Source: Butyrivibrio sp. AE2015 (GTDB lineage Bacteria; Bacillota; Clostridia; Lachnospirales; Lachnospiraceae). Taken from it: a DNA stretch of 64,000 nt. The position numbers were made by a program, and so were the translations under genes. The DNA lies in assembly GCF_000420825.1 (NCBI RefSeq), contig NZ_ATVR01000002.1, positions 62,001-126,000 of the forward strand. The letters run 5' to 3'. Below the pieces are notes generated by a model. That model had not been told where the DNA came from and ran no database searches. It worked only from the letters and a program-made list of their open reading frames with translations. Numbering within the stretch: the first letter of the stretch is position 1; each line of letters opens with the position of its first letter. Shown piece by piece: positions 1,659 to 21,252 of the stretch.

Positions 1659-3320
1659 TTATCTTACAACTCCGAACCCCAGGATTGTAAACTTCTTATC
1701 GTTCATGCCGTCCGCCATCTTAATCTCGACTTTGTGCTGTCTGTTTTTCTCTTCATTGAAGAGAATCACGGCATTACAATGTGTCCATCCAACCTCTAAT
1801 GGATTGACATCCTTTATCTTTTTTTCATCCACGAAAACCTGTGCCGTTCCGAAGGATGCGCTTCCTGAATCCTTGAACACCAGTAGCAGCTTACTGCAGT
1901 TAATGTTCATGACAAATGGTTCAGGATCTGAGCTTTTCCCATTATAAGCCCAGTTATTTGGAAATTCAGGTCGTGGAATAATATCTTCGTCCATCTCCAC
2001 AAGCTGAACATCCTTATCAACATCGTCAAAAGAACCTGACGCAAGTTTTGTAATCTTGTATTTCTTTTTAAGAGCCTCTAACTCTTTTTTATCAAGCAGT
2101 TCAACCTTTTCAAAGTCCCCACCTATTACCGGATGTGGAAGTTTCTCATCTTCTTCATATGAAGTATCCCTTGATTCATTGACGTTATCGATCAGATTTA
2201 TGAGGCAATCGCTCATTATCTGATGACCAAGATTACTTGGGTGGTATACATCATAAAAGAACTGATTCTTGGATATAACCCTTCCATCTTCCGGAAGAAG
2301 CTTAAACTGCTCTGTTACTGCATCCAGGACACTCACCATAGGAAGATCATATCTGATTCCTACAGGCCCCAATCTGTCCTGAAGATTCCAGTCAAAAGAA
2401 AATACTGCAAAAAGTAAAACCACTGCCGGCTTCCATGGAAGTGCCAAGGCCTTTCTTACAAGGCTTTCATAACAGACTCCCTTTGTCTCATCGCCTTCAT
2501 CATTTACAGCAAATTCAATGACTATAAGGTCGGGCTTTTCGGCGTAGTCCCTAAGGACATCGCGCTCAAATCTTATCATTCCAAGTTCTGAGGGAGTTCC
2601 TCCAACACCTGCCTTGATAAAATTTACTTTCCCGCCTTTGATATATCTTTTCTGAAACTCGTCTGCAAAAACTTTTGCATAGCATTTCTCATTTATTGGT
2701 ATAGCTCCGGCTCCCTGTGTAATAGATCCTCCAATAAAAGAAAGTGTGACATTCTCACCACTTCCGGCCTTACTTAAAACTTTTTCAAGCCTTGCGGTGT
2801 TTCCGGCATGCAACAGACTCCGTGAGATCATCTTTTTATATCTTGAAGACTTAAAATCAACAAGCTGTTCCATTGGCTGAACAGGAGCAATGAAGCCCTG
2901 ATTAAGATAGAATCTGACATCCGCTGCTGCCTGGATTCCTGAAGTTCCAAACTCAAATCTTATCTGCCCCACTTCTTTATCTGAAGCTTCCCATTCTATA
3001 TCCTCAAGATTTATGACTGTCTCCATCCCATCCATGTAAAGCTCCTTTTTTATCTGGGTAGCTTTTTCTCCCGGATGTTCAGGATACATTTCAAGTACGA
3101 ATTTCACCGGCTCTTTGGCATCGCGACCTGAAACACTGACACCTATGCTGTGTACAACTGTCTTAAAGCCCTGAGCTGACTTAAGCAGCTCTAACATGTA
3201 GTCATCTTCGATGTTGCCTGATAATCTTGCAGCATCTATAAGTCTTCCACAGTCCATATAAAGAAACTGAACGCCCCGGCCATCAGGCTGAGGCGCTCCA
3301 AATATTTCTTTACCCTGCAT
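1659..3320 (-). CDS. SGNH/GDSL-type carbohydrate esterase
   Basis: Counting from the ATG at 3320 the protein has 553 residues. An N-terminal beta-rich domain (about 1-170) precedes an SGNH hydrolase domain. That domain has GGSIT with nucleophile Ser199, a VGGTPSELG block, FAVND and a C-terminal DVYHPSNLGH block carrying the Asp/His pair. A further beta-rich domain follows. Deacetylation of xylan fragments is inferred from the locus. No signal peptide is present from this start. The start is uncertain: the frame stays open upstream to an ATG at 3407 and a GTG at 3425, both inside the preceding gene, and no start has a good ribosome site. It is the last gene of the operon before the terminator at 1609-1652. 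Confidence 0.8.
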   Translation of the reverse strand: MQGKEIFGAPQPDGRGVQFLYMDCGRLIDAARLSGNIEDDYMLELLKSAQGFKTVVHSIGVSVSGRDAKEPVKFVLEMYPEHPGEKATQIKKELYMDGMETVINLEDIEWEASDKEVGQIRFEFGTSGIQAAADVRFYLNQGFIAPVQPMEQLVDFKSSRYKKMISRSLLHAGNTARLEKVLSKAGSGENVTLSFIGGSITQGAGAIPINEKCYAKVFADEFQKRYIKGGKVNFIKAGVGGTPSELGMIRFERDVLRDYAEKPDLIVIEFAVNDEGDETKGVCYESLVRKALALPWKPAVVLLFAVFSFDWNLQDRLGPVGIRYDLPMVSVLDAVTEQFKLLPEDGRVISKNQFFYDVYHPSNLGHQIMSDCLINLIDNVNESRDTSYEEDEKLPHPVIGGDFEKVELLDKKELEALKKKYKITKLASGSFDDVDKDVQLVEMDEDIIPRPEFPNNWAYNGKSSDPEPFVMNINCSKLLLVFKDSGSASFGTAQVFVDEKKIKDVNPLEVGWTHCNAVILFNEEKNRQHKVEIKMADGMNDKKFTILGFGVVR

Positions 3321-3354
3321 TATGAAAAAGAAAGGTCTTTTCTTTGTAGGATCT

Positions 3355-3379
3355 TTGGGGGCCTTAGGACCCCCAACAG
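3355..3379 (-). other. GC-rich hairpin between solute-binding-protein and esterase genes
   Basis: TTGGGGG and CCCCCAA pair around an 8-base loop directly after the binding-protein stop codon. No T-run follows, so it looks more like a transcript-stabilising or processing element than a terminator. Such elements are common behind binding-protein genes that need high expression. Confidence 0.5.
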
Positions 3380-3381
3380 TT

Positions 3382-4872
3382 TTACTGAGCGTTTGCCTCG
3401 TCAACATAAGCTTTCCATGTGTCACGGATTGCTTCTACCTGCTCTGAAACAACTACGCCTGGTCCAATGTTCCATACAAAGTCTGAGCCAAGACTGAGGT
3501 TAGGAATCATTCCGTGGTAAGCAATTGTTCCCTTTTCTGTCATCATAGCGATTGTCTCATCAACTGCTCTCTCATCAAAGACACCATTTCTGGCTGTTGA
3601 AAGATATCCGTTGTAATCAAGGTACTCAGCTGAAGGAGCGTTTGTATAAAGGTTCCATGCAAATGCGATCTTCCAAGCCTTGTCTGCATCGTAGCATGCT
3701 GGAATAGCAATTGGGTTGTTTGTCCAAACGTTGATGTAGTCGTCCATCTTAGGTCCCTTAGGGAACATAACGAATCCAACTTCATCCTGCATATCCTCAA
3801 GGAAATTACCAGGTGTTGCGCAATACTCATCATCAACCATGAATGCTGCCATACCATTGATAAATGCTTCCTTGTAGTAATCCCACTCAGCGCCCTCTGG
3901 ATCTGGCATGTCATAGTTTGTAAACATGTTTACTGTCCACTCAAGAGCTTCAAGTGTCTCAGGAGACTCAAGGTTATATACATACTTGCCGCTTGCATCC
4001 TTGTCGATGTATGATCCGCCGTTTGAGAATACAGCTGCTGTTGTCATGTTACCTTCGTTAAGTGTAAGGCCCCAAACATCTACAGTACCATCGTTGTCCT
4101 TATCCTGCTGAACCTTCTGCATAAGCTCTTCGAACTTATCCCATGTCCATGTTCCATCTGCCTGCATATCGTAAAGTGACTCAGGATCGATTCCGGCATC
4201 CTTAAGAAGTCTCTTGTTGAAATATACACCTGTACGTGCTTCTGAATATCCAGCGAACATAGCATAGATGCTGTTTCCTTTAGAATACTGCTCATGGAGC
4301 TTGTTTCTCTGGAACTTAATGTCATTAAAATCAAGGCAGTCAAGTGTTGCAAGGTCATACATAAGACCATTAGCCATAGCTGATGTGATAGCCGGGTCAT
4401 CACGAAGTGTGAAGAGATAGTTCTCATCGCCACCTGTTGTTGCATAGTCTACGAAATCTGTAGGTGTTGAACCCCAGTCTCCAAATGCCTGAGACTTGAT
4501 TGTGAAGTTGTATGTCTGCTGGATCCAATCTCTGTACTCCTGAAGAGCTTCTTCATAATCGTTAGCTGGAGCTGCAGGCTCATCTGATGACCACCAGTCA
4601 CGGATGATGATCTCCATTCCGCCAAGGTCGATTGGGTTGCCGCTTGCATCTGTGATTACCTGATATGGATCATATTCATCAGATGGTGCTTCTGTAGCTT
4701 CTGCAGCTGCTTCTGTTGTAGCTTCTGCGGTAGCTGTTTCTGTGTTTGCTTCTGGCTGAGCAGTATCAGTTGCTGCTGGTGCTGCTTCCTGTGAGCCACA
4801 AGCTGCCATGCTGAAAAGCATAGCTGCCATTGTAATAACGGCTGTTGCTTTGTTTGTTAGAGACTTTCTCAT
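3382..4872 (-). CDS. Extracellular sugar-binding lipoprotein of ABC importer (family 1)
   Basis: This 496-residue protein has a lipoprotein signal (hydrophobic stretch, then MAAC with Cys25). An Ala/Thr/Glu-rich linker to about residue 65 is followed by a family 1 solute-binding fold, with segments such as VYFNKRLLKDAGI and WTWDKFEELMQKV typical of oligosaccharide-binding proteins. It would capture sugar outside the membrane and deliver it to the permease pair encoded immediately upstream (4943-6854). AAGGAGG precedes the ATG at good spacing. The ligand cannot be read from sequence. Xylo-oligosaccharide is inferred from the neighbouring xylanase. Confidence 0.92.
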   Translation of the reverse strand: MRKSLTNKATAVITMAAMLFSMAACGSQEAAPAATDTAQPEANTETATAEATTEAAAEATEAPSDEYDPYQVITDASGNPIDLGGMEIIIRDWWSSDEPAAPANDYEEALQEYRDWIQQTYNFTIKSQAFGDWGSTPTDFVDYATTGGDENYLFTLRDDPAITSAMANGLMYDLATLDCLDFNDIKFQRNKLHEQYSKGNSIYAMFAGYSEARTGVYFNKRLLKDAGIDPESLYDMQADGTWTWDKFEELMQKVQQDKDNDGTVDVWGLTLNEGNMTTAAVFSNGGSYIDKDASGKYVYNLESPETLEALEWTVNMFTNYDMPDPEGAEWDYYKEAFINGMAAFMVDDEYCATPGNFLEDMQDEVGFVMFPKGPKMDDYINVWTNNPIAIPACYDADKAWKIAFAWNLYTNAPSAEYLDYNGYLSTARNGVFDERAVDETIAMMTEKGTIAYHGMIPNLSLGSDFVWNIGPGVVVSEQVEAIRDTWKAYVDEANAQ

Positions 4873-4942
4873 ACTCTAAAAATCCTCCTTTACCCCCTAA
4901 GGTAATATTATTGTTATCCAGACTTATTGTCCGGGTGGAACC

Positions 4943-5953
4943 TTACATCTTTATACCTGTGCTACTGATACTCTCAACAAATGCTCTCTGTGCAAAAAGA
5001 TAAAGAACAATGAGCGGAACGATGATCATAAGTGTTCCTGTTGCGAGAATACAGTTTGAATATGCTATTGAAATTGTTGTCTTTACACCATTTATTCTCT
5101 GAATATATGCTCCGAGACTGTCCACAATTCTTGAAAGACCAGTGCTTATAAGCTTTGTGTTTCCAAGGAACATTCTTGAATAAAAACCATCTGTCCACTG
5201 CCAAACAAAGGCAAAGAGGAAACATGATGTAAGAATAGGTTTTGCCTGTGGAAGCATGATCCTTATAAAAGTCTTAAATGTTCCGCAGCCATCTACATAA
5301 GCCGCTTCTTCCAAATCTCCCGGAATATTTCTGAAGTACTGTCTTATCATGTATATATAAAGACCATTCTTAAGTCCCATACATCCAGCGCTCATAAGAT
5401 AATATGGAAGTTTTGACCCCCTCAGGTTAATAGTCTGACCTGTTATGAGCTGTGAAAGACCAAGTACATCAAAAAATCTGAAGTGCAGATGGAGTGAGCT
5501 GGCAATGGTCTGTGGTGGAATAAGGATTACCAGTATCACACATGCAAACCAGAATTTCTTTAATGGAAATTCAAATCTTGCGAACCCGTATCCAACCAGT
5601 GTGCACATTGCAATCTGAAGCGCTGCGATTGTAAGCGAAATAAGTGTTGAGTTTAAAAGCGCCTGCTTGAAGCTTATGAGCTCTGCTGCCAGTCTGTAGT
5701 TAGCTGTTGTAAAGTGCTCAGGGATCGAGATAACAACCGGATTATAAAGATCCTGCTCTGTCATGAAGCTGACAGATATTTTATTCAGGATCGGCTGAAT
5801 GATCATGAAGCACATTCCAAAAAGAAGAATGAATCTTATAATGCTTACAGCTCTTTCTCCTATTACTTTTCTAAGCAGATATCCTCCGGACTGTTTGTTC
5901 CTCTCCCAAAAGCTCTGCTTTGCGTAGGCACTATTTGTTTTTACATTAGTCAT
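4943..5953 (-). CDS. Carbohydrate ABC transporter permease (MalG/AraQ-like)
   Basis: The 336-residue integral membrane protein has about six hydrophobic segments. It carries the cytoplasmic EAA loop (EEAAYVDGCGTFKTFIRIMLP), which docks the ATPase. Its start overlaps the end of the preceding permease gene by 8 bases, so the two are translationally coupled. The N-terminal extension of about 30 residues before the first membrane segment is somewhat long for the family. With the 5946-6854 product it forms the membrane channel for the binding protein at 3382-4872. No ATPase gene lies in the locus, so a shared MsmK/UgpC-type ATPase is presumed. Confidence 0.92.
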   Translation of the reverse strand: MTNVKTNSAYAKQSFWERNKQSGGYLLRKVIGERAVSIIRFILLFGMCFMIIQPILNKISVSFMTEQDLYNPVVISIPEHFTTANYRLAAELISFKQALLNSTLISLTIAALQIAMCTLVGYGFARFEFPLKKFWFACVILVILIPPQTIASSLHLHFRFFDVLGLSQLITGQTINLRGSKLPYYLMSAGCMGLKNGLYIYMIRQYFRNIPGDLEEAAYVDGCGTFKTFIRIMLPQAKPILTSCFLFAFVWQWTDGFYSRMFLGNTKLISTGLSRIVDSLGAYIQRINGVKTTISIAYSNCILATGTLMIIVPLIVLYLFAQRAFVESISSTGIKM

Positions 5954-6854
5954 AGTAGTAAACCCTCTTAGAAATAAAGAATGATGTTATTCCCACAAAT
6001 GCAAGTACCAGGATGAAATAGATCCATGACATTGCCGAAGCATTTCCATATTGCTGCTGCTCGATCATTACCTTCTGGATCTTTTCAATTACTCCGTTAT
6101 CTGATCTCATACAGAAATCAACAACTGTGTAGATCCAGTTAACAAGGAACAATGAGCTTATCATCGGGAATGTTATCTTCCACAAACTCTCCCACTTTGT
6201 ACATCCTTCTATATCAGCAGCTTCATACATACTTGATGAGATTGTCTGAAGACCTGATAAAAAGATAATGATCTGAATTCCGGAAGCAAGTGCCACATCA
6301 TAAATGTTATCTATGACTTCAAATACCTGCTCAAAAGCTCTTACACCGACGCCTGTTGTTCTAAGTATTGATTCAAGAGCTCCTGTAATACTTACGCCCT
6401 CTGTTGTCTGTTCAATACTCTGTGCCAGGTTTGCCATGAGCTGGTTGTTTGATTCAAGTCCTACGATAACGCCGGATGAAAGGATAACAGGTAAAAAGAA
6501 TATTGCTCTTACAAGAGCTCTTCCTTTAAACTTCTGATTCAGGACAAGTGCCACAAAGAAGCTGAACACTATGATCGCCAGTGAATAAACCATCATTCTT
6601 GAAAGTTCCTCCCACAAAAGCCTGTTGTATTCCGGGTCAACCCTGAATGCAAATATGTAATTGGTGATTCCTGAAAATGTCTTTGTAACTTTTCCTGCTG
6701 ACAGATCAACGTTACAAAAACTCATGTAACAGGATTCAAAAAGAGGTTTTATCATGAACAGCAAAAAGCCAAGAATAAATGGTGATATAAAACAATATCC
6801 CGATATGGCTTTTCGCTTTTGTAATCCTGCCAGTTTATTTTTCTGCTTACTCAT
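5946..6854 (-). CDS. Carbohydrate ABC transporter permease (MalF/UgpA-like)
   Basis: This 302-residue membrane protein has a typical first helix (CFISPFILGFLLFMIKPLF) and the EAA loop YEAADIEGCTKWESLWKITFP. It pairs with the next gene to form the importer channel. The periplasm-facing loop after helix 2 to 3 (about residues 130-190) is longer than usual. AAGGAAGG lies before the ATG. The gene starts 14 bases after the DUF5696 gene ends, consistent with one transcript. Confidence 0.92.
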   Translation of the reverse strand: MSKQKNKLAGLQKRKAISGYCFISPFILGFLLFMIKPLFESCYMSFCNVDLSAGKVTKTFSGITNYIFAFRVDPEYNRLLWEELSRMMVYSLAIIVFSFFVALVLNQKFKGRALVRAIFFLPVILSSGVIVGLESNNQLMANLAQSIEQTTEGVSITGALESILRTTGVGVRAFEQVFEVIDNIYDVALASGIQIIIFLSGLQTISSSMYEAADIEGCTKWESLWKITFPMISSLFLVNWIYTVVDFCMRSDNGVIEKIQKVMIEQQQYGNASAMSWIYFILVLAFVGITSFFISKRVYYYD

Positions 6855-6868
6855 AAAGGATGCCTTCC

Positions 6869-9466
6869 TTATCTCTTAACGATATAGTCTCTTGCCGGTA
6901 CTTTTACGCCTTCATCTGTAGTAAAATCGCTGTAACCGTAATTGACGTATACTTGTGTTCCATCTGCATATTCTGTACATGAAACATCTGAATTTAAGTT
7001 CTTATGTCCAACCATTTCCTGATTGAATGTGTGTCCCAGTTCTGCATTGTATCTGTTGTAGATACCAAGCATCTTGTCTTTCCAGGAATCATATGTTGAA
7101 CCATAGTAATCTGTGTACAGAGTTTTCTGAGTGGCAAAAGAGCTCTCTTCCATAAATGAGAAGCAAAGGCCTGCTCCATACTCAGCGCTATATAGAACTT
7201 CGTTTTCAGCGTTACCGCAAATGTTTATTGGATTGCCTGTATAATCAACTCTTCCGTGAACTGCTATCTGGAAGAATGGAACACATTCATCAAGGATCGT
7301 GTATTCACTTCCTCTTAAATCCATCTCTGTAACCATGGAACAGAAAGGAATTGCATAATCATTACCCATGTTTATCATGAGCTTTGATCCGCCATCTGCG
7401 TATCCTTTAAGCTGCTCAACCTGGAGGTTCTTTACAGCTTCTCTGCTGTAGGTCTTCTTTCTGGAGAAGTCAGAAGAAAGATCCATTCCCAAGTCTTCAA
7501 AGCAGGCACCTGCGCCAAGACTGTTACTGCTCTTTACAAGTACATCTGACAATTTCTTTGAAAGATCTGTGTGAAGAAGGAAGTAGTTGTTATCTGTGTT
7601 TTCCCTCTGTGCATAAGTTACATGGCTGTAATTGTAAAGCTCAGCTCTTTCCTTACTTATGAATTTTGCTGCATCTCTAAAAGAGAAGAATCCATCGAGA
7701 AGGTTGCTGTCATATGCATACTCTGTTACACCGTTGAGGTAGACTTCAGCTCCTTTTTCATCAGCAGAAGCTATCATGTTCTTTAGATCTTTTTTACTTC
7801 CAAGATCAGAAATTGTTTTTGTTTTCTTAAGTATTTTTTGCTGAACACCGCCGTTGCACCAGCCAAGCATTTTTACTTTCATGTTTGAAACGCCGTTTGC
7901 ACTAAGGTCTTCAACTATATTTGCTGCATCTTTATAACTTGTGAGCTTAAGTGGTCTTGATACAGGAACACCCACAACCTGCTTAACCTTATCGATGGCT
8001 CCTACCATTTCAATAGCAACAGGAGTGCTTTCATCGCTAACAAGGTCCATATATCCTACGTACTTGTCCTGGAGATATTTGCCATAGCACTTTGCCATGT
8101 CCACATAATCTCCTGAATTTACGAAGGTGTACCTCTGAGTCAGAGTCTCATCAGGTAACTCCTTTATGTATTCATAAATATCTGAATTGGCGATATCGCC
8201 TACATCATATTTTTCTCTCTGGCAGATGCTGTATTTTGCATTTACGTAGTTGTAACTGTGGTTCTTTCCTGCTATGTCTGCCTGAATAGAAGCGTATGGG
8301 CTTCCTTCTTCAAGGATACAGATAAAAGAATCATTTCCTTCAGATACACCGTACACACCGTAATATGCTCTTGTGTTGTGTACCACAGCATCTCTTGAAA
8401 GGCACATATCCCAGCCATATACATTTGTGTAATAGCTACTCTGTGAATTCTTACCGTTGTTGAAGTTAATTGTTGCTCCGCCACCTTCAGGAACAAACAT
8501 AAATCCTTTATCGTTTGGACCGCCTGCTCCAAAATATGGAAGAGGAGTTATTGTGTAGATAGGTGTTTCTTTGTCGTACTCAAGGTCTTTAAGTGGAACT
8601 TCTACAACCAAATCTTTTCCCTCGAGCTTGTAAACTACGCTGACATTGAACACTGGGTTTTCTGAAGTCTTAACTGAAAGATCAAGCTCTTTGTCCGCAA
8701 GGAAGTTCTCATATGTGTAACCAACTGCTGCAAACTTCTCTTCAATGGTCTTTTTCACATTTTCTTTTGTTCCGCTTCTGAGAACGTAGATAACTTCATT
8801 TTCCATGCTTGGATAATTTGCTAAAAGCTCATCCTTGTTATCTTTTGCTGTGAGCTTGTTGATGTCGTATTTCTTGTAGTACTGCTTAACAAGATCAGCT
8901 TCTTTCTTATCCATCTTTGAAAGCCAGTCATTCATCTCTGTTTCAGTGATAACCGGCGGTACCACATATTCTTTTTCTACATTACCAAGAGAGTAGTTGA
9001 CTCTTATCTCATTGTCGCCCGGAATGATCTCGTATATTCCGTTATTGGTGCTATAGCCAAAAGTGCTGTAGGTTGTCTCAAGTCCCTGTGTTATGGAATA
9101 TGACATAACAAGTGGAGACTGAAGGAATGTCTTCTGATCATCAAGAGCTGCTGTATCCTCTAAAACGTCAGCAGGATTTGAGCGCCATACTTTTCCAGAA
9201 TCCTTAACCTCAAGCTCGAAGGCTGTTGTCAAAGGATCCATGGTGAGTTTCAGCTCACCGTTGTCTACTACAACCGGTGTGTCATTTCCCTCAAATGTAT
9301 AGGGCTGAACCAGCTCTTTTTCCTCTGCTACAGGCTTGTAGTTAATAACAAATATGGCTGCAATAACTATGATCAAAGCCAGAATAATCGAGGGCAAATG
9401 CTTTATTATAGTTGTCAGGAATGAACCTATATATATTTTTTTTGGTTTCTTATTTTCTGTCTTCAA
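6869..9466 (-). CDS. DUF5696-type membrane-anchored surface protein, possible glycosidase
   Basis: About 865 residues are encoded. A basic cytoplasmic tail and one membrane helix (about residues 17-45) are followed by a large extracellular part. The N-terminal half is beta-rich. The second half has alternating strand/helix blocks such as VKMLGWCNGGVQQK, GAEVYLNGVTEY and GACFEDLGMDLSSDF, which look like a TIM barrel. I recall this protein type as DUF5696, found beside sugar ABC importers in Paenibacillus and Lachnospiraceae and without an assigned activity. The first possible start is GTG at 9475, but AGAGG is spaced correctly only for TTG at 9466. It lies between the two importer modules, so a role in presenting or trimming glycan at the membrane is inferred. 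Confidence 0.75.
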   Translation of the reverse strand: MKTENKKPKKIYIGSFLTTIIKHLPSIILALIIVIAAIFVINYKPVAEEKELVQPYTFEGNDTPVVVDNGELKLTMDPLTTAFELEVKDSGKVWRSNPADVLEDTAALDDQKTFLQSPLVMSYSITQGLETTYSTFGYSTNNGIYEIIPGDNEIRVNYSLGNVEKEYVVPPVITETEMNDWLSKMDKKEADLVKQYYKKYDINKLTAKDNKDELLANYPSMENEVIYVLRSGTKENVKKTIEEKFAAVGYTYENFLADKELDLSVKTSENPVFNVSVVYKLEGKDLVVEVPLKDLEYDKETPIYTITPLPYFGAGGPNDKGFMFVPEGGGATINFNNGKNSQSSYYTNVYGWDMCLSRDAVVHNTRAYYGVYGVSEGNDSFICILEEGSPYASIQADIAGKNHSYNYVNAKYSICQREKYDVGDIANSDIYEYIKELPDETLTQRYTFVNSGDYVDMAKCYGKYLQDKYVGYMDLVSDESTPVAIEMVGAIDKVKQVVGVPVSRPLKLTSYKDAANIVEDLSANGVSNMKVKMLGWCNGGVQQKILKKTKTISDLGSKKDLKNMIASADEKGAEVYLNGVTEYAYDSNLLDGFFSFRDAAKFISKERAELYNYSHVTYAQRENTDNNYFLLHTDLSKKLSDVLVKSSNSLGAGACFEDLGMDLSSDFSRKKTYSREAVKNLQVEQLKGYADGGSKLMINMGNDYAIPFCSMVTEMDLRGSEYTILDECVPFFQIAVHGRVDYTGNPINICGNAENEVLYSAEYGAGLCFSFMEESSFATQKTLYTDYYGSTYDSWKDKMLGIYNRYNAELGHTFNQEMVGHKNLNSDVSCTEYADGTQVYVNYGYSDFTTDEGVKVPARDYIVKR

Positions 9467-9487
9467 ATCCGTCACCTCTTGTTATTA

Positions 9488-10147
9488 CTACATTCGGAAC
9501 ATCAATTCTTTTCCCAGGGAAATGAAATATGCAATTCCCTGAGCGACCATGCTAAAGAAGATCATCAGGATAAATATCATTACCAGCATTGCAAAAAGTG
9601 TTGCTACAACGAACAATAAGTTCTTGCCTGCGGAATACTCGTGGATCTGCCCCATTGCCGCTATTATCAAAAGAGCTGAATAAACTAATGATAATAAGCT
9701 TACAACCGAGTAGAATTCTGCTTCCTGAACTGTTACAAAATTACTGAATATCATGAGCGGAAACTGTATCAGGACGTATGGAGTAAATGCATAGCAGGTT
9801 GCCATGTAAACCTGTCCAAGTCTTCCTTTTCCATCAAACAGTGTTGTAAGTCCCCAGTTTCCAAGTACCCAGAGAGCAAGCGGAAAAACTACACTTGCCA
9901 GATACATGAAGATATTTAAGTCTTCCCAGTAAACTTCCATAAACAGAAAACTTGTATAGCGAAGCTTTAATATTCTTATGAGAAGCGCCAGCGCAAGTAT
10001 GGTATTGGCTGCTGCATATGTGCCTCTCTTTTCATGAGTAAGATCCCAGAAGCCATCCAGAGGATGAGTCGTGCAGTAAAGTGCAAACTTGAGGGAATCT
10101 ATATATTTTTCTTTTGGAGTAAGATTTTCTCTAACATTTGCTATCAT
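9488..10147 (-). CDS. YIP1-family integral membrane protein
   Basis: The 219-residue protein starts with a cytoplasmic segment (about 1-40) containing DGFWDLTHEKRGTY. Roughly five membrane helices follow, the arrangement of Yip1/YIPF-domain proteins. Bacterial members have no established biochemical role. The start has AAAAAGGTG at good spacing. It sits 4 bases after the NHL-protein gene and 12 bases before the DUF5696 frame, so the three are very probably co-translated. A scaffold or assembly role for the surface proteins encoded next to it is inference only. Confidence 0.75.
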   Translation of the reverse strand: MIANVRENLTPKEKYIDSLKFALYCTTHPLDGFWDLTHEKRGTYAAANTILALALLIRILKLRYTSFLFMEVYWEDLNIFMYLASVVFPLALWVLGNWGLTTLFDGKGRLGQVYMATCYAFTPYVLIQFPLMIFSNFVTVQEAEFYSVVSLLSLVYSALLIIAAMGQIHEYSAGKNLLFVVATLFAMLVMIFILMIFFSMVAQGIAYFISLGKELMFRM

Positions 10148-10151
10148 AGCT

Positions 10152-11666
10152 TCACCTTTTTTCTTCTACTTTGAATATGTCAGCATTATCAATCTGCCAC
10201 CTGATGCTCTTTATCTTTCCTATGGAAAGAGGAACCAAAAACAGTATAATGACAAATGCTACTATCCATCCGATGTGAGCCTCAACCCACTCTTTTCTGT
10301 ACTGCTTATAGGCCTTTGAGTAGTTCTCTCTGTCATATTTAAGTTCGAAATACTTCATGGCATCTTTGTATTGTTCCTGACGAAGAAGTGCTCTTCCGAT
10401 TCCGATGTAAGCAAGGTCGTAGTTGCCATTCTGGTCCATGACCTGCTGCCAGTAATTACCTGAAGCCTCGTAATTGCCCTTATCAAATTCCTCTATTGCG
10501 CTATATACAAGGTTTCCAAATTCAGTAGGAACAAAAGATGTTATTGAGCAGTCAAGACTGTCTACAACATAAAGCTCATGGCCGATGTGCTCAATTGCTG
10601 ATGGTCTTCTAAAGTATCCATCCATGTTACCGTTTCCACCGAAAGCAAATACCATTCTGCCCTGGTCATCATATGCAAAAAGTCTTCCTCTGTTTCTGTC
10701 CAGGCATACATAGATGTCATTGTCCATAACTGTTACATCTGTGAGGATTGAAGGTCCTTCATATCCACCGCCGGATCCAAGATAAAGATCTCCACCCACT
10801 GACCAGTTGCCGTTGGAAACCAGAATATCGTCACCCATGAGGTTCAATTTTCTTACAGCATTCTCATCTGATCTTGCCTGATCTTCCGTACGGGCTTTTG
10901 TTGCATATATGAAACCTTCATAGTCCATGTAGATGTTTTCATACTCTGTAGGAACGAATGACTCAAGTTTTGCTCTCTGTTCCTGAGAAGCAAGTTTCTT
11001 CCATATATAATCTGTCCACTCAAAGCTAACAGGTGTCGCTCCTACAAATCCTGAGAAAGTGCCGTCATTTTCGTACTTCACAAGACCTTTGTTTATTCCT
11101 GATGCGATACAGTAAACTCTCTCTGCCGTATCAACTACCAGTTTATTTGGCTGAAAAACAAGTGAAGGATCAAGGGTATTATCTGTGGGTTTGATAAATT
11201 CCATCAGATAGTTGAAGTCCTTATCAACCTTCAGTATCCTTGCATTTCCCTGATCTGCTATGAAGATATTTCCATCTTCTGAAACTGAGATATCAGTGGG
11301 ATTGTTAAAGGTTGCAGGTCCTGATCCGCCTTTTATTGAATCTACAACTCTTACAACTTCAAGCTTCTCAGGTGATACTCTGTTTAATTCAATGATCCTG
11401 TTATTACCGCTATCGCACAGATAAAGGGAATTACCGTCAGCAAACAACCCTTGAGGATTTTTAAGTTTGACATCAAGTCCAAGCTCTGAAGATGTGAGTA
11501 CTTTGCTGACAGAATACAGATCAGGACTCTCCTGAACATCTCCCCAATAATCGTAGTTATACGTGTAGTGTTTCTCTTCTGCGCAGGCCGTAACAGGCTG
11601 GAAAAGCACAACTGATACACCAATGAATGCTGCTAAAGTTTTTATGAATAAATTCTTTTTACGCAT
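10152..11666 (-). CDS. Secreted NHL-repeat beta-propeller protein with TPR and C-terminal membrane anchor
   Basis: From the ATG at 11666 (AAGGTCAAGG upstream) the protein has 504 residues. It has a signal peptide ending near TACAEE. NHL-type blades follow, with repeated patterns such as GLFADGNSLYLCDSGNNRIIEL and DISVSEDGNIFIADQGNARILKV. A TPR-like helical region (ALLRQEQYKDAMKYFELKY) and a C-terminal membrane helix (IGWIVAFVIILFLVPL) complete it. An upstream in-frame start at 11744 lies inside the permease gene and is rejected. The layout suggests an outward-facing propeller used for binding or sensing. Function is unknown. It lies between the permease gene and the YIP1 gene of the same operon. 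Confidence 0.8.
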   Translation of the reverse strand: MRKKNLFIKTLAAFIGVSVVLFQPVTACAEEKHYTYNYDYWGDVQESPDLYSVSKVLTSSELGLDVKLKNPQGLFADGNSLYLCDSGNNRIIELNRVSPEKLEVVRVVDSIKGGSGPATFNNPTDISVSEDGNIFIADQGNARILKVDKDFNYLMEFIKPTDNTLDPSLVFQPNKLVVDTAERVYCIASGINKGLVKYENDGTFSGFVGATPVSFEWTDYIWKKLASQEQRAKLESFVPTEYENIYMDYEGFIYATKARTEDQARSDENAVRKLNLMGDDILVSNGNWSVGGDLYLGSGGGYEGPSILTDVTVMDNDIYVCLDRNRGRLFAYDDQGRMVFAFGGNGNMDGYFRRPSAIEHIGHELYVVDSLDCSITSFVPTEFGNLVYSAIEEFDKGNYEASGNYWQQVMDQNGNYDLAYIGIGRALLRQEQYKDAMKYFELKYDRENYSKAYKQYRKEWVEAHIGWIVAFVIILFLVPLSIGKIKSIRWQIDNADIFKVEEKR

Positions 11667-11685
11667 ATCGCCTTGACCTTTCGCT

Positions 11686-12549
11686 TTAATCTTTAAGACC
11701 TGAGCTAGCCATTGTTTCAAGGATCTGGCTCTCAGAGAATACAAAGATAATGATTGGAACGATCATAACAACAACAAGAACGGCTGCTCCCTGTCCTGTT
11801 CTTGCAATTCCTCCGCTCTGAATCTGCTGAAGGGCATATACAAGAGTTTTTCTTTCTTCTGAATAGATATATGTTGATGCCTTGTTGTTCCAAAGAGCCT
11901 GAACCGAGAAGATAATAAGTGTCATCCACGCAGGCTTAACGTTTGGCATTACTATTCCTGAAAATACTTTCCACTCATTGGCACCGTCAATCTTGGCTGC
12001 TTCTATAAGTGATGTAGGAAGTCCTTCCATGAACTGCTTCATAAGGAAAAGACCCATTGGTGAAGCGAAGGCCGGGATGATGATTGACCAGTAAGTATCG
12101 ATCCATCCGAGTTTGTTAAGTATCAGGTAGTTAGGAATCTGTGTTACCCAACCTGTGAACATCATGGCTACTGTTACAAGTTTGAAAAATGCCTTGTTTC
12201 CTGGGAAATCATATTTCGCAAGAACGAAAGCTCCCATTGAGGCAATGATAAGGTGCCCTGCTGTTCCAACAAATGTGATGAAAACTGTGTTGAACAGGTA
12301 TCTTGTAAATGTGACCCAGGATTTTCCCATTGTTACAAACAAATCTGAGAAGTTATCAAGCGTAGGATGCTGAGGAAAAATTCTCGGTGGGAATTTAAAA
12401 AGTTCATCCAGAGGCTTAAGTGCACTGCTGACTGCGTATATGATCGGAAAAGCCATGACTATGGCAACAAGTACAAGGAAAACGTAAAGTGCTATATCTC
12501 CTGCAATTGATCTGTTCGGTTTTCTTTTCTTAATTAGCTTCTTGCTCAT
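11686..12549 (-). CDS. Carbohydrate ABC transporter permease (MalG-like), second importer
   Basis: This 287-residue permease has the usual six membrane helices and the EAA loop IEAAKIDGANEWKVFSGIVMP. I chose the ATG at 12549. A TTG at 12561 directly abuts the AGGAG sequence and is too close to be used. The chosen start follows the previous stop codon by one base, indicating coupling. It partners the 12551-13489 permease and the 982-residue binding protein. It is clearly different in sequence from the first importer's permease at 4943-5953, so the two importers are not a recent tandem duplication. Confidence 0.92.
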   Translation of the reverse strand: MSKKLIKKRKPNRSIAGDIALYVFLVLVAIVMAFPIIYAVSSALKPLDELFKFPPRIFPQHPTLDNFSDLFVTMGKSWVTFTRYLFNTVFITFVGTAGHLIIASMGAFVLAKYDFPGNKAFFKLVTVAMMFTGWVTQIPNYLILNKLGWIDTYWSIIIPAFASPMGLFLMKQFMEGLPTSLIEAAKIDGANEWKVFSGIVMPNVKPAWMTLIIFSVQALWNNKASTYIYSEERKTLVYALQQIQSGGIARTGQGAAVLVVVMIVPIIIFVFSESQILETMASSGLKD

Positions 12550-12550
12550 A

Positions 12551-13489
12551 TCAAGTTCCAACTCTCCTTAAAAGACTCTGGATTGCCTTGTTGCAAAGTA
12601 TCATCATAAGGAACAATATTGTTGCTATTGCGCAGGCATAACCCATTTCAAATCTTGAAAAACCATAGTCAAACAAATGAGTAACAATTGTACGTGCAGC
12701 ATAATCTGTACTTGGATATCCACAAAGAGCCATAGTCACATCTGCGACACCAAATGATGATGTGATGGACATAACTGCACCGAACATAAGCATTGGTTTC
12801 ATGTTTGGAAGTGTGATATACCAAAGCTCCTGCCATCTGTTCTTTATTCCATCCATGTACCCGGCTTCGAACTGAGCTCTGTCTACGCCCTGAAGTCCGG
12901 CTACGAATGAAAGGAATCCTGTTCCCAAACTCATCCAGAGGATAACCAGCATACATATTGGAAGCATGTAATGTGGATCAATAAGCCAAAGCTTAGGACC
13001 ATCAATGATTCCCACACTCATCAGGAAAGCGTTTACGTATCCGTAAGCATCTCCTCTAAAGAACACTGAGAAGATAACATAACAGTTACCTGCAATTGAT
13101 GGCGCATAGAACACGATTACCGCTATACTTCTGATCCATCTTGGAAGCTCATTTATAAGCCATGCAAACAGGAAAGAAAGAATGTAGCCCAAAGGTCCTG
13201 TTATCAGTGCTATCATCAGTGTGTTTTTTACACCTATCAGGAAGATATCATCCTGGAGCACAAGGCTTATGTAGTTCTGAAGTCCGATAAATCTCGGCGG
13301 TTCAAGGATGTTGTAATATGTGAAGCTGTAGTAGATTGATGCAACTACAGGGAACACATAGAACATAGTGAACAATATTGCATATGGAGCAAGAAAGAGA
13401 TAACACATCTTGCGGTTTTTGGCCTTTTTAAGTGCCACTGTAAAATTATGCTTTCGAAGCTTTATATACTTCTGCAGATATTCCTTCAT
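12551..13489 (-). CDS. Carbohydrate ABC transporter permease (MalF-like), second importer
   Basis: The 312-residue membrane protein has an N-terminal basic stretch, a first helix (YLFLAPYAILFTMFYVFPVV) and the EAA-type loop FEAGYMDGIKNRWQELWYITLP. GGAG lies 8 bases before the ATG. It lies 26 bases after the large binding-protein gene, matching the usual order binding protein, MalF-like, MalG-like. It forms half of the membrane channel of the second importer. The substrate is inferred to be a xylan-derived oligosaccharide. Confidence 0.92.
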   Translation of the reverse strand: MKEYLQKYIKLRKHNFTVALKKAKNRKMCYLFLAPYAILFTMFYVFPVVASIYYSFTYYNILEPPRFIGLQNYISLVLQDDIFLIGVKNTLMIALITGPLGYILSFLFAWLINELPRWIRSIAVIVFYAPSIAGNCYVIFSVFFRGDAYGYVNAFLMSVGIIDGPKLWLIDPHYMLPICMLVILWMSLGTGFLSFVAGLQGVDRAQFEAGYMDGIKNRWQELWYITLPNMKPMLMFGAVMSITSSFGVADVTMALCGYPSTDYAARTIVTHLFDYGFSRFEMGYACAIATILFLMMILCNKAIQSLLRRVGT

Positions 13490-13515
13490 TGTCAGTTCTC
13501 CATCGGTTTTTGTTT

Positions 13516-16464
13516 TTATTCAACCGGCATACCAAACTCAATACGTTTCTTCTTGATTTCTTCATCAATCAGAATTGAGTAATCGATGATTGTCTCTCTG
13601 GAATCAACCTTATCGTTGATTACTTTTCTTATGGCATTTGAGATGTGTCTTCCTGTGAAGTATCCACCTGGCACTTCTCTTATACCAACTGTGTTGTCCC
13701 ACTGCTCACTTAATACTTTGATATCATCTGCGCTCCAGGAAAGATTTTCGAATGCATCCCTGTTTGCTGTTGCATATCTTGCAGATGAACCAAGGAGTGC
13801 CTCGATCTCTCTACCGAATCTTACCTGTGTATCAGCATTTGCCCACCACTTCATGAACTCCCATGAATTTTGTCTGAGCTCTTCATCCTCTGTTGCGATC
13901 ATCATTGTTGCGGTTCCTGTGATGAAGTCTGATCTGTCGATATATTTTTTACCGTTTGCATCTACTCTCTCGGTTCCCGGGATCAGTGTGAAGTCCCAGA
14001 GGCCTCTTATTTCAGGAGCTGAAACCATAAGTGTGTTGTAGGTTGAATATGGTGCTACACCTATTGGCATTTCTCCTGCACGGAATCTGCTTACAAAGTC
14101 ATAGATAGTTGGGATTCCATAGTCGTTAAAGTATCTTACGTAGTCATCGAATGCCTTTACTCCGGCTTCGGTATTAACCGTTGTCTTTGTTCCCGCCTCG
14201 TTGTACATGTCTCCGCCATACTGGTAAAGTAGTGAGAAGTACATTGAAAGGTCAGGCACATTTGACATGATCGATGTTGACGCTGCTGCAGCTCCGCTAC
14301 TTCCTGCTGCTGTCGGGATACCGATTGAAAGGTTATTTCCCTGAATCGTAGGAAGCATCTCGATCAGCTCTTTCCATGTCTGTGGTGTTTCAAGCTCAAG
14401 CTCTTCCAGTACATCTTTTCTATAGAACATTACGTTGAAGCCCTGTGTCTCCGGAATACCGTAAATATGTCCGTCAAGTCTATACTGTTCATATGAACTC
14501 TCTGAATAGTGAGATAAAACTTCTTCCCATCCATCAAACTGTGTTATATCCTCTGCTGCACCTCTGAGGGCGTAGTTTACAGGCTGATCGGCACCAACTG
14601 ATAAAACTACGTTTGGTCCTCGTCCTGCAAGTACTGCGTTAAGGAGTGCGCCGGGATCTACAATCTCTACGTTTACCTTTACTCCTGAATTTGGAGTAAA
14701 ATCATCATCAACCATGGACTTAAGGATTGTTCCCTGGTCTCTACCTGTGAGTACCCAAACCTTTACTACTTTATCGCTTGAGTTCTCATCGTAAACATCA
14801 CCAACTGAGTTATAGTCCACAAAGAATGATGCGATGAAAGACTTTACTTCATGGCCTGCTTTAGTAAAGAAGTTGGCCTTATCTTTTTTTACCTTGGCAT
14901 CAGTTCCTGAAATCACCAGGTAATCCACATCAAGCTTTGTTTCACTCATCTTAAGAGATGCTGTACCAAGAGCTGTTATGTTGTCCTTGAATGTAACAAA
15001 CTCTGTTGTGATCTTTTGAGGCTTTTCTATAAATCTTTCAAGCTGCTGGGCGATAGTCTGCGCTGTTGCGATGTTATCTGCTTTCTGTCCGGAGTAAGCA
15101 ACCATATCATCAACGATCTTGTAAAGTCTTTTTGCTTCAAGATCCATGGCCCTCATAATTTCCGGATATGTTGTATCAATATGATAATCTCTGTACACAT
15201 CAGGTCTTGCACCTGTGTATACCAGAATTCTTCTGTATATCTGATTCAGTCTGTAAGTTGAATCTTCCATTTCCTCAAGGATTGCACCCATACCGCCAAG
15301 AGTTGCCTCTAGTCTTACGTTGTGTGTTCCTTTTGTCAGATAGAACTTATAAGGATTTCCCTCTGCATCTGAGAGTGTCATTGAGTCCCAGTCATTGCTA
15401 TAGGCAAAAGAGATTTCTTCAAGTTCTTTAAATGGAATCTTTCCATCTATGAGTACGCTTCTGTTTGATACAGAGCCTCTTGCATAGTTCTGTCTTGCCT
15501 TGACTGTGATGTTGTAATATCCATCTTCAGGTACTTCAAAGTTCCATTCGATCCACTGTCCGGAAGCTCTCCAGGCCTCACCGCCTACGTAGTTAAGGAC
15601 TGTTGTTGTAACACTGTTTGGAACTGTTGTAGGTGATGATCTGTCATATTTTGCATAAAGTGAAGATTCTGACCTTAATGTTGAATCCTCGCCCTGAACT
15701 ACTTCAAGATAAGTTTTTGCAGCTTCTGTTCCTTCGCTGCCCTGATTGCTTGCGATATACTGCTCGTAGCTCGGTGTTTCTTTTACTCCACAAAGCTCAA
15801 CCCTTGAAAGGACCATAGGTTCATTGTCTGCTACAAATGTCAGAGTGTTGTCACCTTTTTCAAAGTAGAAAACATAAGGCTCAGCTACGAATCCCATGTC
15901 ATCTCTAAAGAATGCACTCTGCCAATCGAAGTACTCAACCTGCCTTGGACGGATCTCATTTCCCTGGTTATCTATCTTTTTCTCTCCACCGTCCATCCAC
16001 ATTCTGGTAAAAGAAATGTTTCTTGCATCTTCAAATGGAATCTCGCCGTTTACCAAAACAGTTCTCTCTGCAGGAACGCCTCTGGATTCCGGTATGTAGT
16101 AGTCGATATCTATCTGATACATTCCGGCCGTTGGAACATTTACATTCCATGTGATCTCTGAACCGGTTCCTGTGAAAACGCCATCTCTTGATGCAACTGA
16201 TTCTTTGTGCACCTCACCTGTTGACTGATAATCAAAAAGGCTGACTTCCACGTTTTCCTGTGGATAAGCATCTTTTGCATGTTCATTTATATATCCGGTG
16301 TAGGCACCAACTCTTTCCATGCCTTCAATTTCTTCGGTAAGATCGGCATCTGCATATTTGGCACTGAAGTCTTCGATTTTTCTGCTTGAAAGACCAATGC
16401 ATATGCATACTATAACTGCCAGGATTCCCACAACTATTAAAACTTTTTTAAGTGTTTTGTTCAT
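13516..16464 (-). CDS. Membrane-anchored solute-binding protein with two carbohydrate-binding-like modules
   Basis: At 982 residues this is about twice the usual size of a family 1 binding protein. Residues about 7-25 form an uncleaved-looking membrane anchor with no lipobox. Two related beta-sandwich modules follow (about 70-240 and 270-440), each with a GTYNI/MYQIDIDYY-type strand, a 'VLVNGEIPF' or 'VLIDGKIPF' turn and a 'GTHNVRLEA' or 'GDNTLTFVA' end, as in CBM6/35-like domains. A helical linker (440-560) leads to a complete solute-binding fold (about 565-982). It is the second gene of the operon, 26 bases after the xylanase. I infer that it grips a polymer or long oligomer and feeds the adjacent permeases. 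Confidence 0.85.
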   Translation of the reverse strand: MNKTLKKVLIVVGILAVIVCICIGLSSRKIEDFSAKYADADLTEEIEGMERVGAYTGYINEHAKDAYPQENVEVSLFDYQSTGEVHKESVASRDGVFTGTGSEITWNVNVPTAGMYQIDIDYYIPESRGVPAERTVLVNGEIPFEDARNISFTRMWMDGGEKKIDNQGNEIRPRQVEYFDWQSAFFRDDMGFVAEPYVFYFEKGDNTLTFVADNEPMVLSRVELCGVKETPSYEQYIASNQGSEGTEAAKTYLEVVQGEDSTLRSESSLYAKYDRSSPTTVPNSVTTTVLNYVGGEAWRASGQWIEWNFEVPEDGYYNITVKARQNYARGSVSNRSVLIDGKIPFKELEEISFAYSNDWDSMTLSDAEGNPYKFYLTKGTHNVRLEATLGGMGAILEEMEDSTYRLNQIYRRILVYTGARPDVYRDYHIDTTYPEIMRAMDLEAKRLYKIVDDMVAYSGQKADNIATAQTIAQQLERFIEKPQKITTEFVTFKDNITALGTASLKMSETKLDVDYLVISGTDAKVKKDKANFFTKAGHEVKSFIASFFVDYNSVGDVYDENSSDKVVKVWVLTGRDQGTILKSMVDDDFTPNSGVKVNVEIVDPGALLNAVLAGRGPNVVLSVGADQPVNYALRGAAEDITQFDGWEEVLSHYSESSYEQYRLDGHIYGIPETQGFNVMFYRKDVLEELELETPQTWKELIEMLPTIQGNNLSIGIPTAAGSSGAAAASTSIMSNVPDLSMYFSLLYQYGGDMYNEAGTKTTVNTEAGVKAFDDYVRYFNDYGIPTIYDFVSRFRAGEMPIGVAPYSTYNTLMVSAPEIRGLWDFTLIPGTERVDANGKKYIDRSDFITGTATMMIATEDEELRQNSWEFMKWWANADTQVRFGREIEALLGSSARYATANRDAFENLSWSADDIKVLSEQWDNTVGIREVPGGYFTGRHISNAIRKVINDKVDSRETIIDYSILIDEEIKKKRIEFGMPVE

Positions 16465-16490: not shown

Positions 16491-17939
16491 TTATTCTTGA
16501 GCAAATACCCAGAAAGCCGGCTTAGGCTCGTAATTTCCATCAAAAAGCAATGGGCATTGTTTTTGCTCTTTATTGCTTCCACCGCCTACATTTGATCTGA
16601 ACTGAAGCCATGAAAGCGTATCTATTGTTCCCCAGAAAGTCATGCCTGTTATGTTCACACCTGAGTTCTTGGCAGATTGAAGAGAATAATACATGAGGTT
16701 GTAGATCTTTCTTTGTTTCTCATACTCTTCTTCCATAGCTTCAGGGCTTCCATCATAACCATCTGTAGCTCTTAAATCCCACTCTGTAACCTGAACTGCT
16801 CCTACGACTTTTCCGTAAGCCTTTATTGATGTTTCCATCTCAGCTGCTGAAGGGCCTTCCATACTGTAATGTCCCTGCATTCCCATGGCTGAAATCCTTG
16901 TTCCTTCGCCCGGAGCTCCTTCATTTTCCTTTATCTTCTCAAGAAGCTTGATGATTCCTTCTCTCTTTTTGGCATCGCATTCGTTATAGTCGTTGTAGTA
17001 AAGCTCAAGGTCGGCAGGTGCATATTTGTTGGCATATTTAAAAGCATTTATTATGAAGTCTTCATTCTGATATACATGCCACCAGCTTGAATTGCCGCCG
17101 TGTCTGTCTTCCAAAAGATCCTCTTCAGGTCTTTCTGTATCGGTTCTGTAAGTTCCGGTTGAATCTGACACTGCTTCGTTTACAACATCCCATCCATAGA
17201 AGAGATCTTTGTAAGGGCTGCCCTCGCCTGTGAAATGTGTAAGGACTTCTCTTATGTACCACTCAAGTCTTTTGTCCATTTCTTCGGCTGTCACATAATC
17301 TTTTGTCTTGTCGTAGTCCACATGGAAGAACCACTCCGGTGTCTGTGAATGCCACAAAAGAACATGGCCTCTTACCTTTATCTGTCTGTCAGGATTTGCT
17401 TCGTTCCATTTAAGTATCTTATTAAGGATCTTTTCTGGATTAGTGTAATTAAGAACAGGAACTGTAATTGTTTCACCGTTTAGTTCTGCCTCTTTTGTTC
17501 CCGGACATTTACTTACGCTGTATCCGAAAAGTGAATCGGGTTTTAATTCATTTCCGAGGGTAACTGCATTAAAGTGAGTTGTTACCAGATCCCAAAGTTT
17601 TGAGTCCCAGGGTTCTTTTCCGGTTATGGCACATCCGATCCGGCATCCCATCTTTTTTTCTACTGCATCGCGAAGCGCCGGTATTTCTTTTGCCACATCT
17701 TGCTTTTCTGTACTCATCTGTGTACTTCCTTCTATATTCGTATCTTCTTTTGCAGATGCTTCTGTATTTGATGCTTCTTGTGTCTGTGCTTCCGCACCTG
17801 ACTCTATATTTGATTCTATGTTGGATTCTATGCTGGATTCTGCTGAAGATGCAGCTGTACTGCTCACGCTGCCGCAGGCCGATGTTGACATCATTACGGC
17901 TGCCAGAGCCATCACTGCCAGATACTTCCCCTTTACCAT
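16491..17939 (-). CDS. GH10 endo-beta-1,4-xylanase lipoprotein
   Basis: The 482-residue protein has a lipoprotein signal with Cys22 (STSAC). A Ser/Glu/Thr-rich linker (about 25-80) contains repeated SNIES-like units. A GH10 catalytic barrel follows. The acid/base glutamate is Glu255 in WDVVNEAV and the nucleophile is Glu386 in QVTEWDLR. It would cut xylan chains at the outer face of the membrane. GGGGAGG lies 7 bases before the ATG at 17939, so the upstream GTG at 17969 is not used. It is the first gene of the long operon and lies opposite the AraC regulator. Confidence 0.95.
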   Translation of the reverse strand: MVKGKYLAVMALAAVMMSTSACGSVSSTAASSAESSIESNIESNIESGAEAQTQEASNTEASAKEDTNIEGSTQMSTEKQDVAKEIPALRDAVEKKMGCRIGCAITGKEPWDSKLWDLVTTHFNAVTLGNELKPDSLFGYSVSKCPGTKEAELNGETITVPVLNYTNPEKILNKILKWNEANPDRQIKVRGHVLLWHSQTPEWFFHVDYDKTKDYVTAEEMDKRLEWYIREVLTHFTGEGSPYKDLFYGWDVVNEAVSDSTGTYRTDTERPEEDLLEDRHGGNSSWWHVYQNEDFIINAFKYANKYAPADLELYYNDYNECDAKKREGIIKLLEKIKENEGAPGEGTRISAMGMQGHYSMEGPSAAEMETSIKAYGKVVGAVQVTEWDLRATDGYDGSPEAMEEEYEKQRKIYNLMYYSLQSAKNSGVNITGMTFWGTIDTLSWLQFRSNVGGGSNKEQKQCPLLFDGNYEPKPAFWVFAQE

Positions 17940-18263
17940 CAACTTTCCTCCCCGCTTTCTAGTAATCACTTTTTGCTAAAACATATTAAAGTTGACAATG
18001 TATAGCATATAGGCTACAGGCCTGACTCGCTTACCAGTTGTTGCCAGACGACATTCAGATATTGCGATTAGGTGACAGAAATTGCCCTTCATTTTTTGTG
18101 CATTATTCACAATTGGCATAGGGATGTTCTAGAATGTATTATCTAATATGAGCAGAAAAGAATAGAGAATAGCAATTTTTGAGAAGTCTTGATAATCATA
18201 AAATGTTATCATAATTTATGAATTATTCGTAAAATAGTATCTGAAATAAGAGAGGTTACAGCT
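17940..18263. promoter_or_regulatory. Divergent control region between xylanase operon and AraC regulator
   Basis: This region of about 320 bases holds no gene. On the minus strand there is a TATACA box near 17998 with no clear -35, as expected of an activator-dependent promoter. The plus-strand promoter for the regulator is listed separately. Binding sites for the AraC-type regulator would be expected here, but I could not define a convincing direct repeat. Confidence 0.45.
18113..18142 (+). promoter_or_regulatory. Likely sigma-A promoter of the AraC-type regulator gene
   Basis: TTGGCA (18113-18118) and TATTAT (18137-18142) are separated by 18 bases, upstream of the gene at 18264. Confidence 0.5.
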
Positions 18264-21031: not shown

Positions 21032-21252
21032 GCCCCATTGCTTCTTTAGAGTTTGTCAAAAGAAAATATATCGAATTTAACAGGTTCAAAGCCACCAAAA
21101 AGTTGCTGATTTTGTTTCAGTAATTGCGGAAGTCCCCAATTTAGCAAGCTTTACGCAGTGTGTAGCAATATTTGATTGGAAGGCAAAGCCGAAAAAATAG
21201 AAAATTACGGTAGGGTATAAACATTATTATTATGTATTGGGGAGATTATAAA

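Follow-up and report, generated by a model that had tools for sequence, protein, structure and literature searches.

The CUT1 importers described for Anaerocellum bescii and R. cellulolyticum combine a family-1 solute-binding protein (SBP) with two permeases and an ATPase that is encoded elsewhere, as far as the available text of both papers goes. According to that of PMC12838199, A. bescii MsmK serves the cello-oligosaccharide permease from elsewhere in the genome (Athe_0595-0598), and that of PMC9675976 describes XuaABC of R. cellulolyticum as an importer of large arabinoxylodextrins with glycosidases and esterases encoded alongside. The xylan PULs of Butyrivibrio B316 include the SBP genes bpr_I0182 and bpr_I0313 (PMC6344614, consulted portion). 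The locus analysed here, from Butyrivibrio sp. AE2015, lies in a window of 64,000 nucleotides, this term denoting the whole stretch of DNA analysed. It codes for two importers of the CUT1 layout, each with a family-1 SBP adjoining two BPD_transp_1 permeases (Pfam), whose genes enclose those of three membrane or surface proteins: an NHL/TPR protein, a YIP1-family protein and a DUF5696 protein (Table 1). The ORF list and Pfam bear out the initial annotation in that all genes it named are present on the minus strand at the positions it gave.

Table 1. Features of the uptake locus and its surroundings, in window coordinates.
Feature	Position	Strand	Evidence and remarks
GDSL esterase, next downstream of SBP2	1659..3425	-	Pfam Lipase_GDSL_2
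GC-rich hairpin, directly after SBP2 stop	3355..3376	-	One scan flagged the + strand only
SBP2, importer 2 solute-binding protein	3382..4872	-	SBP_bac_1
MalG2, importer 2 permease	4943..5953	-	BPD_transp_1
MalF2, importer 2 permease	5946..6854	-	BPD_transp_1
DUF5696, N-terminal transmembrane anchor and GH129-like ectodomain	6869..9475	-	PF18952
YIP1-family multispan membrane protein, 219 aa	9488..10147	-	Pfam Yip1 47.4 bits, cut-off 28.6
NHL/TPR protein	10152..11666	-	Pfam NHL; listed ORF begins at 11744
MalG1, importer 1 permease	11686..12561	-	Pfam BPD_transp_1
MalF1, importer 1 permease	12551..13489	-	Pfam BPD_transp_1
SBP1, 982 aa	13516..16464	-	Pfam CBM_35 and SBP_bac_8/SBP_bac_1; N-terminal membrane anchor, hydrophobic segment 8-26
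GH10 xylanase	16491..17969	-	Pfam GH10 2e-61; N-terminal hydrophobic segment 17-35
AraC-family regulator, divergent, beyond GH10	18264..19220	+	Pfam HTH_AraC/HTH_18
COesterase and GH43 domains in one 928-aa protein	21232..24018	+	Followed by GH5

The genes are closely packed. Intervals in bases are 26 (SBP1-MalF1), -11 (MalF1-MalG1), 19 (MalG1-NHL), 4 (NHL-YIP1), 12 (YIP1-DUF5696), 14 (DUF5696-MalF2), -8 (MalF2-MalG2) and 70 (MalG2-SBP2), where the third is counted from the ATG at 11666 (504 aa), the likelier start of the NHL protein. Such spacing suggests a single transcript across the operon, whose first gene is probably that of the GH10 xylanase, 26 bases upstream of SBP1. At the other end, the listed GTG start of the GDSL esterase gives a 44-base overlap with SBP2 and the true start is probably further in; the hairpin after SBP2 may be a terminator or attenuator that ends the operon before this gene. 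An Rfam scan of the window gave no match above the gathering threshold. Farther past the AraC regulator Pfam identifies a GH43-CBM6 protein, the carboxylesterase-GH43 protein and a GH5 protein. Importers, glycoside hydrolases and a regulator thus lie in one cluster, as in PULs.

All four permeases keep the EAA loop (MalF1 in 119 of 125 loci, MalG1 in 120 of 125, MalF2 in 113 of 126 and MalG2 in 119 of 125), so that coupling to an ATPase is possible in principle for each of them. The genome of Butyrivibrio sp. AE2015 has one UgpC/MsmK-type ATPase above the NCBIfam cut-off, on a different contig, and in Paenibacillus cellulosilyticus ugpC directly precedes the module operon; a shared ATPase of this type would drive both importers. 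SBP1 carries one CBM_35 match (95-142) within a long amino terminus that can be aligned between distant loci, and its solute-binding domain begins at about residue 570. SBP2 is the least constant member, lying no more than three called genes downstream of DUF5696 in 66/68 close and 18/37 divergent loci (sets defined below). At one divergent locus (L145) MalG2 is followed by six SBP2-like ORFs in a row.

The distribution of the module was surveyed in 398 genomes sampled evenly across the phylum, copy numbers per genome being "at least" values. DUF5696 scores above the cut-off in 42 of them, near-full-length in 40 (18 families) and as short matches of 26 bits in G343 and G365; within the genus it is found in 34/61 genomes. 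The NHL protein, aligned at 1e-25, occurs in 41/398 genomes, namely all 40 DUF5696 carriers and G289, whose match was discarded: its 284-aa ORF lies at one end of an 8.5-kb contig that lacks the other parts (L179). The SBP1 amino terminus, at 1e-30, is found in 47/398: the 40 carriers (G159 having just a partial match where a contig begins), G160 and G202, where it stands without the trio on contigs that break off within MalF1, and five genomes from family f18. The f18 proteins (L188-L194) are stand-alone homologues of 396-561 aa with neither an SBP domain nor the module.

Gene order was compared in two sets of loci. The close set (L031-L110) comprises the best 80 of 127 relatives from a peptide-pattern scan of genome contigs, labelled as Butyrivibrio, Acetatifactor, Eisenbergiella, "Lachnospiraceae bacterium", one "Clostridium sp." and one "Bacillota bacterium"; the closest loci are those of Butyrivibrio P18, Su6 and a water-deer rumen MAG, with DUF5696 proteins 98-99% identical. 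The divergent set holds 46 more DUF5696 places within L139-L187, L175-L178 being additional copies in the genus of the window. Carriers include rumen and gut Lachnospiraceae as well as Paenibacillus, in agreement with the similar neighbourhoods named for both groups in the initial annotation. A plasmid collection yielded two module records, both from Bacillota, and one of them (L203, NZ_CP146964.1, Butyrivibrio fibrisolvens D1 pNP243) is a complete plasmid-borne module accompanied by GH43 and by a histidine kinase/response regulator.

The close set follows the order SBP1-MalF1-MalG1-NHL-YIP1-DUF5696-MalF2-MalG2-SBP2 as far as contigs extend, except that SBP2 was not called in L098 and that L055, L059, L068 and L109 have frames broken into two parts. 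NHL and YIP1 stand directly upstream of DUF5696 in all places with enough sequence (75/75 close, 41/41 divergent) and MalF2 directly downstream (79/79 and 43/43); four upstream and two downstream cases of the divergent counts were read by eye, as ORF overlap hid them from the script. MalG2 comes after MalF2 in 79/79 close and 40/43 divergent loci, the exceptions being L162, which has a MalG2-like gene elsewhere in the locus, L173 and L174. In the latter two (L173:5338-10200 and L174:2483-8086, both from G451) MalF2 is followed by proteins of 1600-1870 aa with CarboxypepD_reg/SdrD_B- and CBM4_9-type domains. The same order in most loci examined, across 18 families, places this arrangement far from chance, and the survey confirms the anticipated co-occurrence of the three middle genes, both among themselves and with the permeases described here. 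We judge the unit to be real, old and coherent.

Its relation to the two importers is unequal. SBP1 is present in 68/68 close and 33/37 divergent loci with enough flank. The remaining half loci keep importer 2 and come from two genomes, L146-L148 from G119, which also has a complete locus (L181), and L153 from G098, in which a MalF1-like gene is part of another importer. G098 further carries L185, which runs SBP1-MalF1-MalG1-NHL-YIP1-DUF5696 before reaching a masked stretch; the 2906-aa DUF5696 ORF listed there is a frame running through masked N and not a genuine length. Linkage to SBP1 and importer 1 is therefore dispensable. The initial description of a module bracketed by two importers stands in that both are usually present, but the tie is to importer 2 and not equally to both. 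These data are best explained by a constant core of MalF2/MalG2, NHL/TPR-YIP1 and DUF5696, with SBP1-MalF1-MalG1 as the usual second pump. The permease pairs are clearly distinct, as was noted from the outset (MalF1/MalF2 21% and MalG1/MalG2 20% identity). Together with the half loci holding importer 2 alone and the variable SBP2, this would suit a super-operon that makes no common complex, in which two ordinary importers, each for its own oligosaccharides, are inherited together with membrane assembly factors. Such an explanation is improbable, since the SBP1 amino terminus never occurs without the trio in the 398 genomes, barring G160, G202 and the five f18 genomes, the parts stay together even where their order is permuted (L157, L159, L161, L167 and L168), and NHL and YIP1 can be fused. 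In L170, MalF1 and MalF2 seem to be extended by fusion (929 and 842 aa), but this was rejected because a GC-rich frame lacking stops appears to precede a normal permease in each case. Mean-field DCA was run on pairs from 124-125 loci, with an effective number of 43-49, and dropped as uninformative: in the positive controls MalF1-MalG1 and MalF2-MalG2, inter-protein couplings accounted for 49% and 45% of the top-ranked pairs vs 51% expected. With the controls failed, the evidence for interaction consists of gene context and one fusion.

That fusion joins the NHL/TPR and YIP1 proteins, which form a single protein in 22/41 divergent and 0/75 close loci. In one fused protein of 717 aa Pfam finds NHL, TPR and Yip1 (63.9 bits), the Yip1 domain exceeding the curated score both there and in the window protein, and a P. 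cellulosilyticus gene annotated "YIP1 family protein" (719 aa) has the length of the fused form. The AlphaFold2 model of the NHL protein (pLDDT 83.5) features a propeller at about 35-380, four TPR-like helices (382-442) and a long helix (446-494), and Foldseek matches it to NHL propellers. Hydrophobic segments lie at 7-25, resembling a signal peptide, and at 465-483 within the long helix, while the YIP1 protein has four (Kyte-Doolittle). In five fused proteins the hydrophobic segments fit a predicted topology with the propeller/TPR part outside, one crossing and then the YIP1 bundle. The sequence relatives of the NHL protein include the NHL domain of PknD (1rwi/1rwl). This relationship, the resemblance of the propeller, the C-terminal transmembrane helix and the membrane bundle to a transmembrane signal path, and the regulators close by (AraC in the window; histidine kinase and response regulator in B. 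fibrisolvens) would agree with NHL-YIP1-DUF5696 being a surface sensor or gate that signals polymer to the cell or to the permeases and is no part of transport. This is unlikely, as Pfam, at the thresholds used, assigns no cytoplasmic signalling domain to any of these proteins, dedicated regulators already exist, and the strictest linkage is to MalF2 and not to a regulator.

DUF5696 is of GH129 ancestry judging by modelled fold and by sequence profile, which the initial annotation had missed. Structure comparison finds the GH129 fold over residues 67-868, with VIA-align rows that cover mainly 378-868, and the profile search matches as well. Pfam PF11308 (GH129) gave no match to DUF5696 at E<=0.001, only PF18952 being reported; a Pfam GH129 search of 249 phylum genomes returned zero matches, with controls that were equally silent. 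An N-terminal hydrophobic segment is present in 86/90 DUF5696 representatives. The reference carboxylates for comparison are NagBb D435, equivalent to ZgGH129 D486, and their partners. The PDB profile alignments end before the catalytic strands, so that the nucleophile position is inferred: the equivalence of position 661 to D486 follows strand order and not residue-level superposition.

An Asp directly follows barrel strand 4, at position 661, in 55/90 representatives, and D669 (85/90, 94%) and D729 (82/90, 91%) are frequent. These residues weaken the case for a non-cutting DUF5696 (the first two in particular) and, together with the GH129 fold over the ectodomain, true sequence homology and operons that often lie among glycoside hydrolases, speak for an active enzyme: a membrane-bound alpha-glycosidase from a new family related to GH129, which would remove side groups near the importer while NHL and YIP1 merely anchor or assemble it. 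We consider such an enzyme rather unlikely. The sole acidic residue in columns conserved at >=95% among the 90 representatives is D356, which is outside the barrel; no barrel Asp or Glu reaches that level. An Asp at 658-663 is combined with a Glu at 699-708 in 6/90, acidic residues occupy both 661 and 702 in 11/90, and proteins closely related to that in the window have, at 661, Asn (L060, L068, L069, L074) or Glu (L086, L090, L096), whereas ZgGH129 is reported to need four acidic residues including D486 (PMC5698469, available text). DUF5696 is built like a sugar-cutting enzyme whose cutting residues may have been lost, and a pseudo-glycosidase of this kind would be the most testable part of the hand-over mechanism proposed below.

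We tentatively favour, at somewhat less than even chances, a conserved carbohydrate-uptake machine whose core of importer 2, NHL/TPR-YIP1 and DUF5696 passes long or branched oligosaccharides inward. The CBM35-like region of SBP1 and the surface GH10 would hold and shorten the glycan, and the GH129-type cleft of DUF5696 would bind a chain or chain end, cutting little or nothing. In a physical complex, the propeller/TPR part and YIP1 would keep DUF5696 and a binding protein above MalF2/MalG2, so that long or branched oligosaccharides could be handed into the importer, with the shared UgpC/MsmK-type ATPase supplying the energy. The uptake machine is supported by DUF5696, NHL and the SBP1 amino terminus being held together in 40/40 carriers, by NHL-YIP1 upstream and MalF2 downstream of DUF5696 in every testable locus, by the NHL-YIP1 fusion, the intact permuted loci and the half loci that keep importer 2, and by the GH129 homology, N-terminal anchor, EAA loops and single UgpC-type ATPase. 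It is weakened by the half loci, the MalG2 exceptions (L162, L173, L174), the failed DCA and the Paenibacillus plasmid locus flanked by oxidoreductases instead of glycosidases. A bolder proposal, which we hold to be doubtful, is an ABC import supercomplex of a new class, in which the propeller-YIP1 scaffold and the pseudo-glycosidase lock together two CUT1 permease pairs served by one ATPase type; DUF5696 would then thread long or branched chains from surface CBM/SBP receptors into the permeases. Such an assembly would be a Gram-positive counterpart of the SusCD outer-membrane glycan system in function, not in parts.

The nature of the glycan may vary between loci. Xylan was the substrate first proposed, and flanks of the close set (82/252, hand-picked; best 25 of 51 families) agree with it in coding for GH10 (7), GH43 (10), GH5 (6) and GH115 (3), besides GDSL (4), GH3 (3) and GH39 (2). 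The proposal is nevertheless too narrow, as other loci differ, with GH26, apiosidase, GH106-type rhamnosidase or flavin oxidoreductases. Divergent-set flanks (111/116; best 25 of 127 families) contain SBPs, permeases, GH26 (4), LacI (4), GDSL (4), GH10 (3), GH43 (3) and apiosidase (2). On the P. cellulosilyticus plasmid (L204, NZ_CP054609.1) the module, placed after ugpC, precedes LLM flavin oxidoreductases and another two SBPs, and the stretch shown has no glycoside hydrolase annotation, which suggests that its substrate is not xylan. From this mixture of flanking enzymes, xylan is the likely substrate class in the window, while the machine as such looks general.

The gene set, for which no description was found in the literature searched, is carried by about one in ten members of the phylum sample (40/398 genomes). 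The term "DUF5696" was not found there, nor was the module in titles and abstract beginnings on YIP1, NHL, solute-binding proteins, Butyrivibrio, Paenibacillus and Caldicellulosiruptor (mostly open-access literature). "NHL" and "YIP1" are absent from the main texts, supplements apart, of PMC12838199, PMC5217386, PMC4765114 and PMC4510573, and "NHL" from the main text of PMC2914790. If it is true that the accessory unit lets an ABC importer admit long or branched glycans, "selfish" uptake in Gram-positive gut bacteria would be re-explained. DUF5696 gains a structural identity as a GH129-like protein, and bacterial YIP1 proteins gain a concrete candidate partner.

The locus combines traits of several described systems. 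It resembles the Gram-positive PULs of Butyrivibrio in bringing together ABC importers, GH10, GH43, GH5, esterases and a regulator, and the module is absent from the consulted portion of the PUL paper's text on Butyrivibrio (PMC6344614). PknD is a membrane-tethered receptor kinase. The NHL protein shares its propeller by sequence (1rwi/1rwl) but differs in its TPR-like helices, its YIP1 partner or fusion and the lack of a kinase domain by Pfam. DUF5696 matches GH129 proteins (NagBb; the 3,6-anhydro-D-galactosidase ZgGH129) in fold and profile, the ZgGH129 protein ZGAL_3152 having been proposed as a family of its own by the authors of PMC5698469 (available text); unlike them, DUF5696 is membrane-anchored, has MalF2 encoded directly behind it and does not strictly conserve the barrel acids. 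Likewise, the importers have the components of the CUT1 systems of A. bescii and R. cellulolyticum, and the xua gene list, in the accessible part of PMC9675976, shows no NHL/YIP1-type partner. Here, in contrast, two permease pairs and three membrane or surface proteins are encoded together in conserved order.
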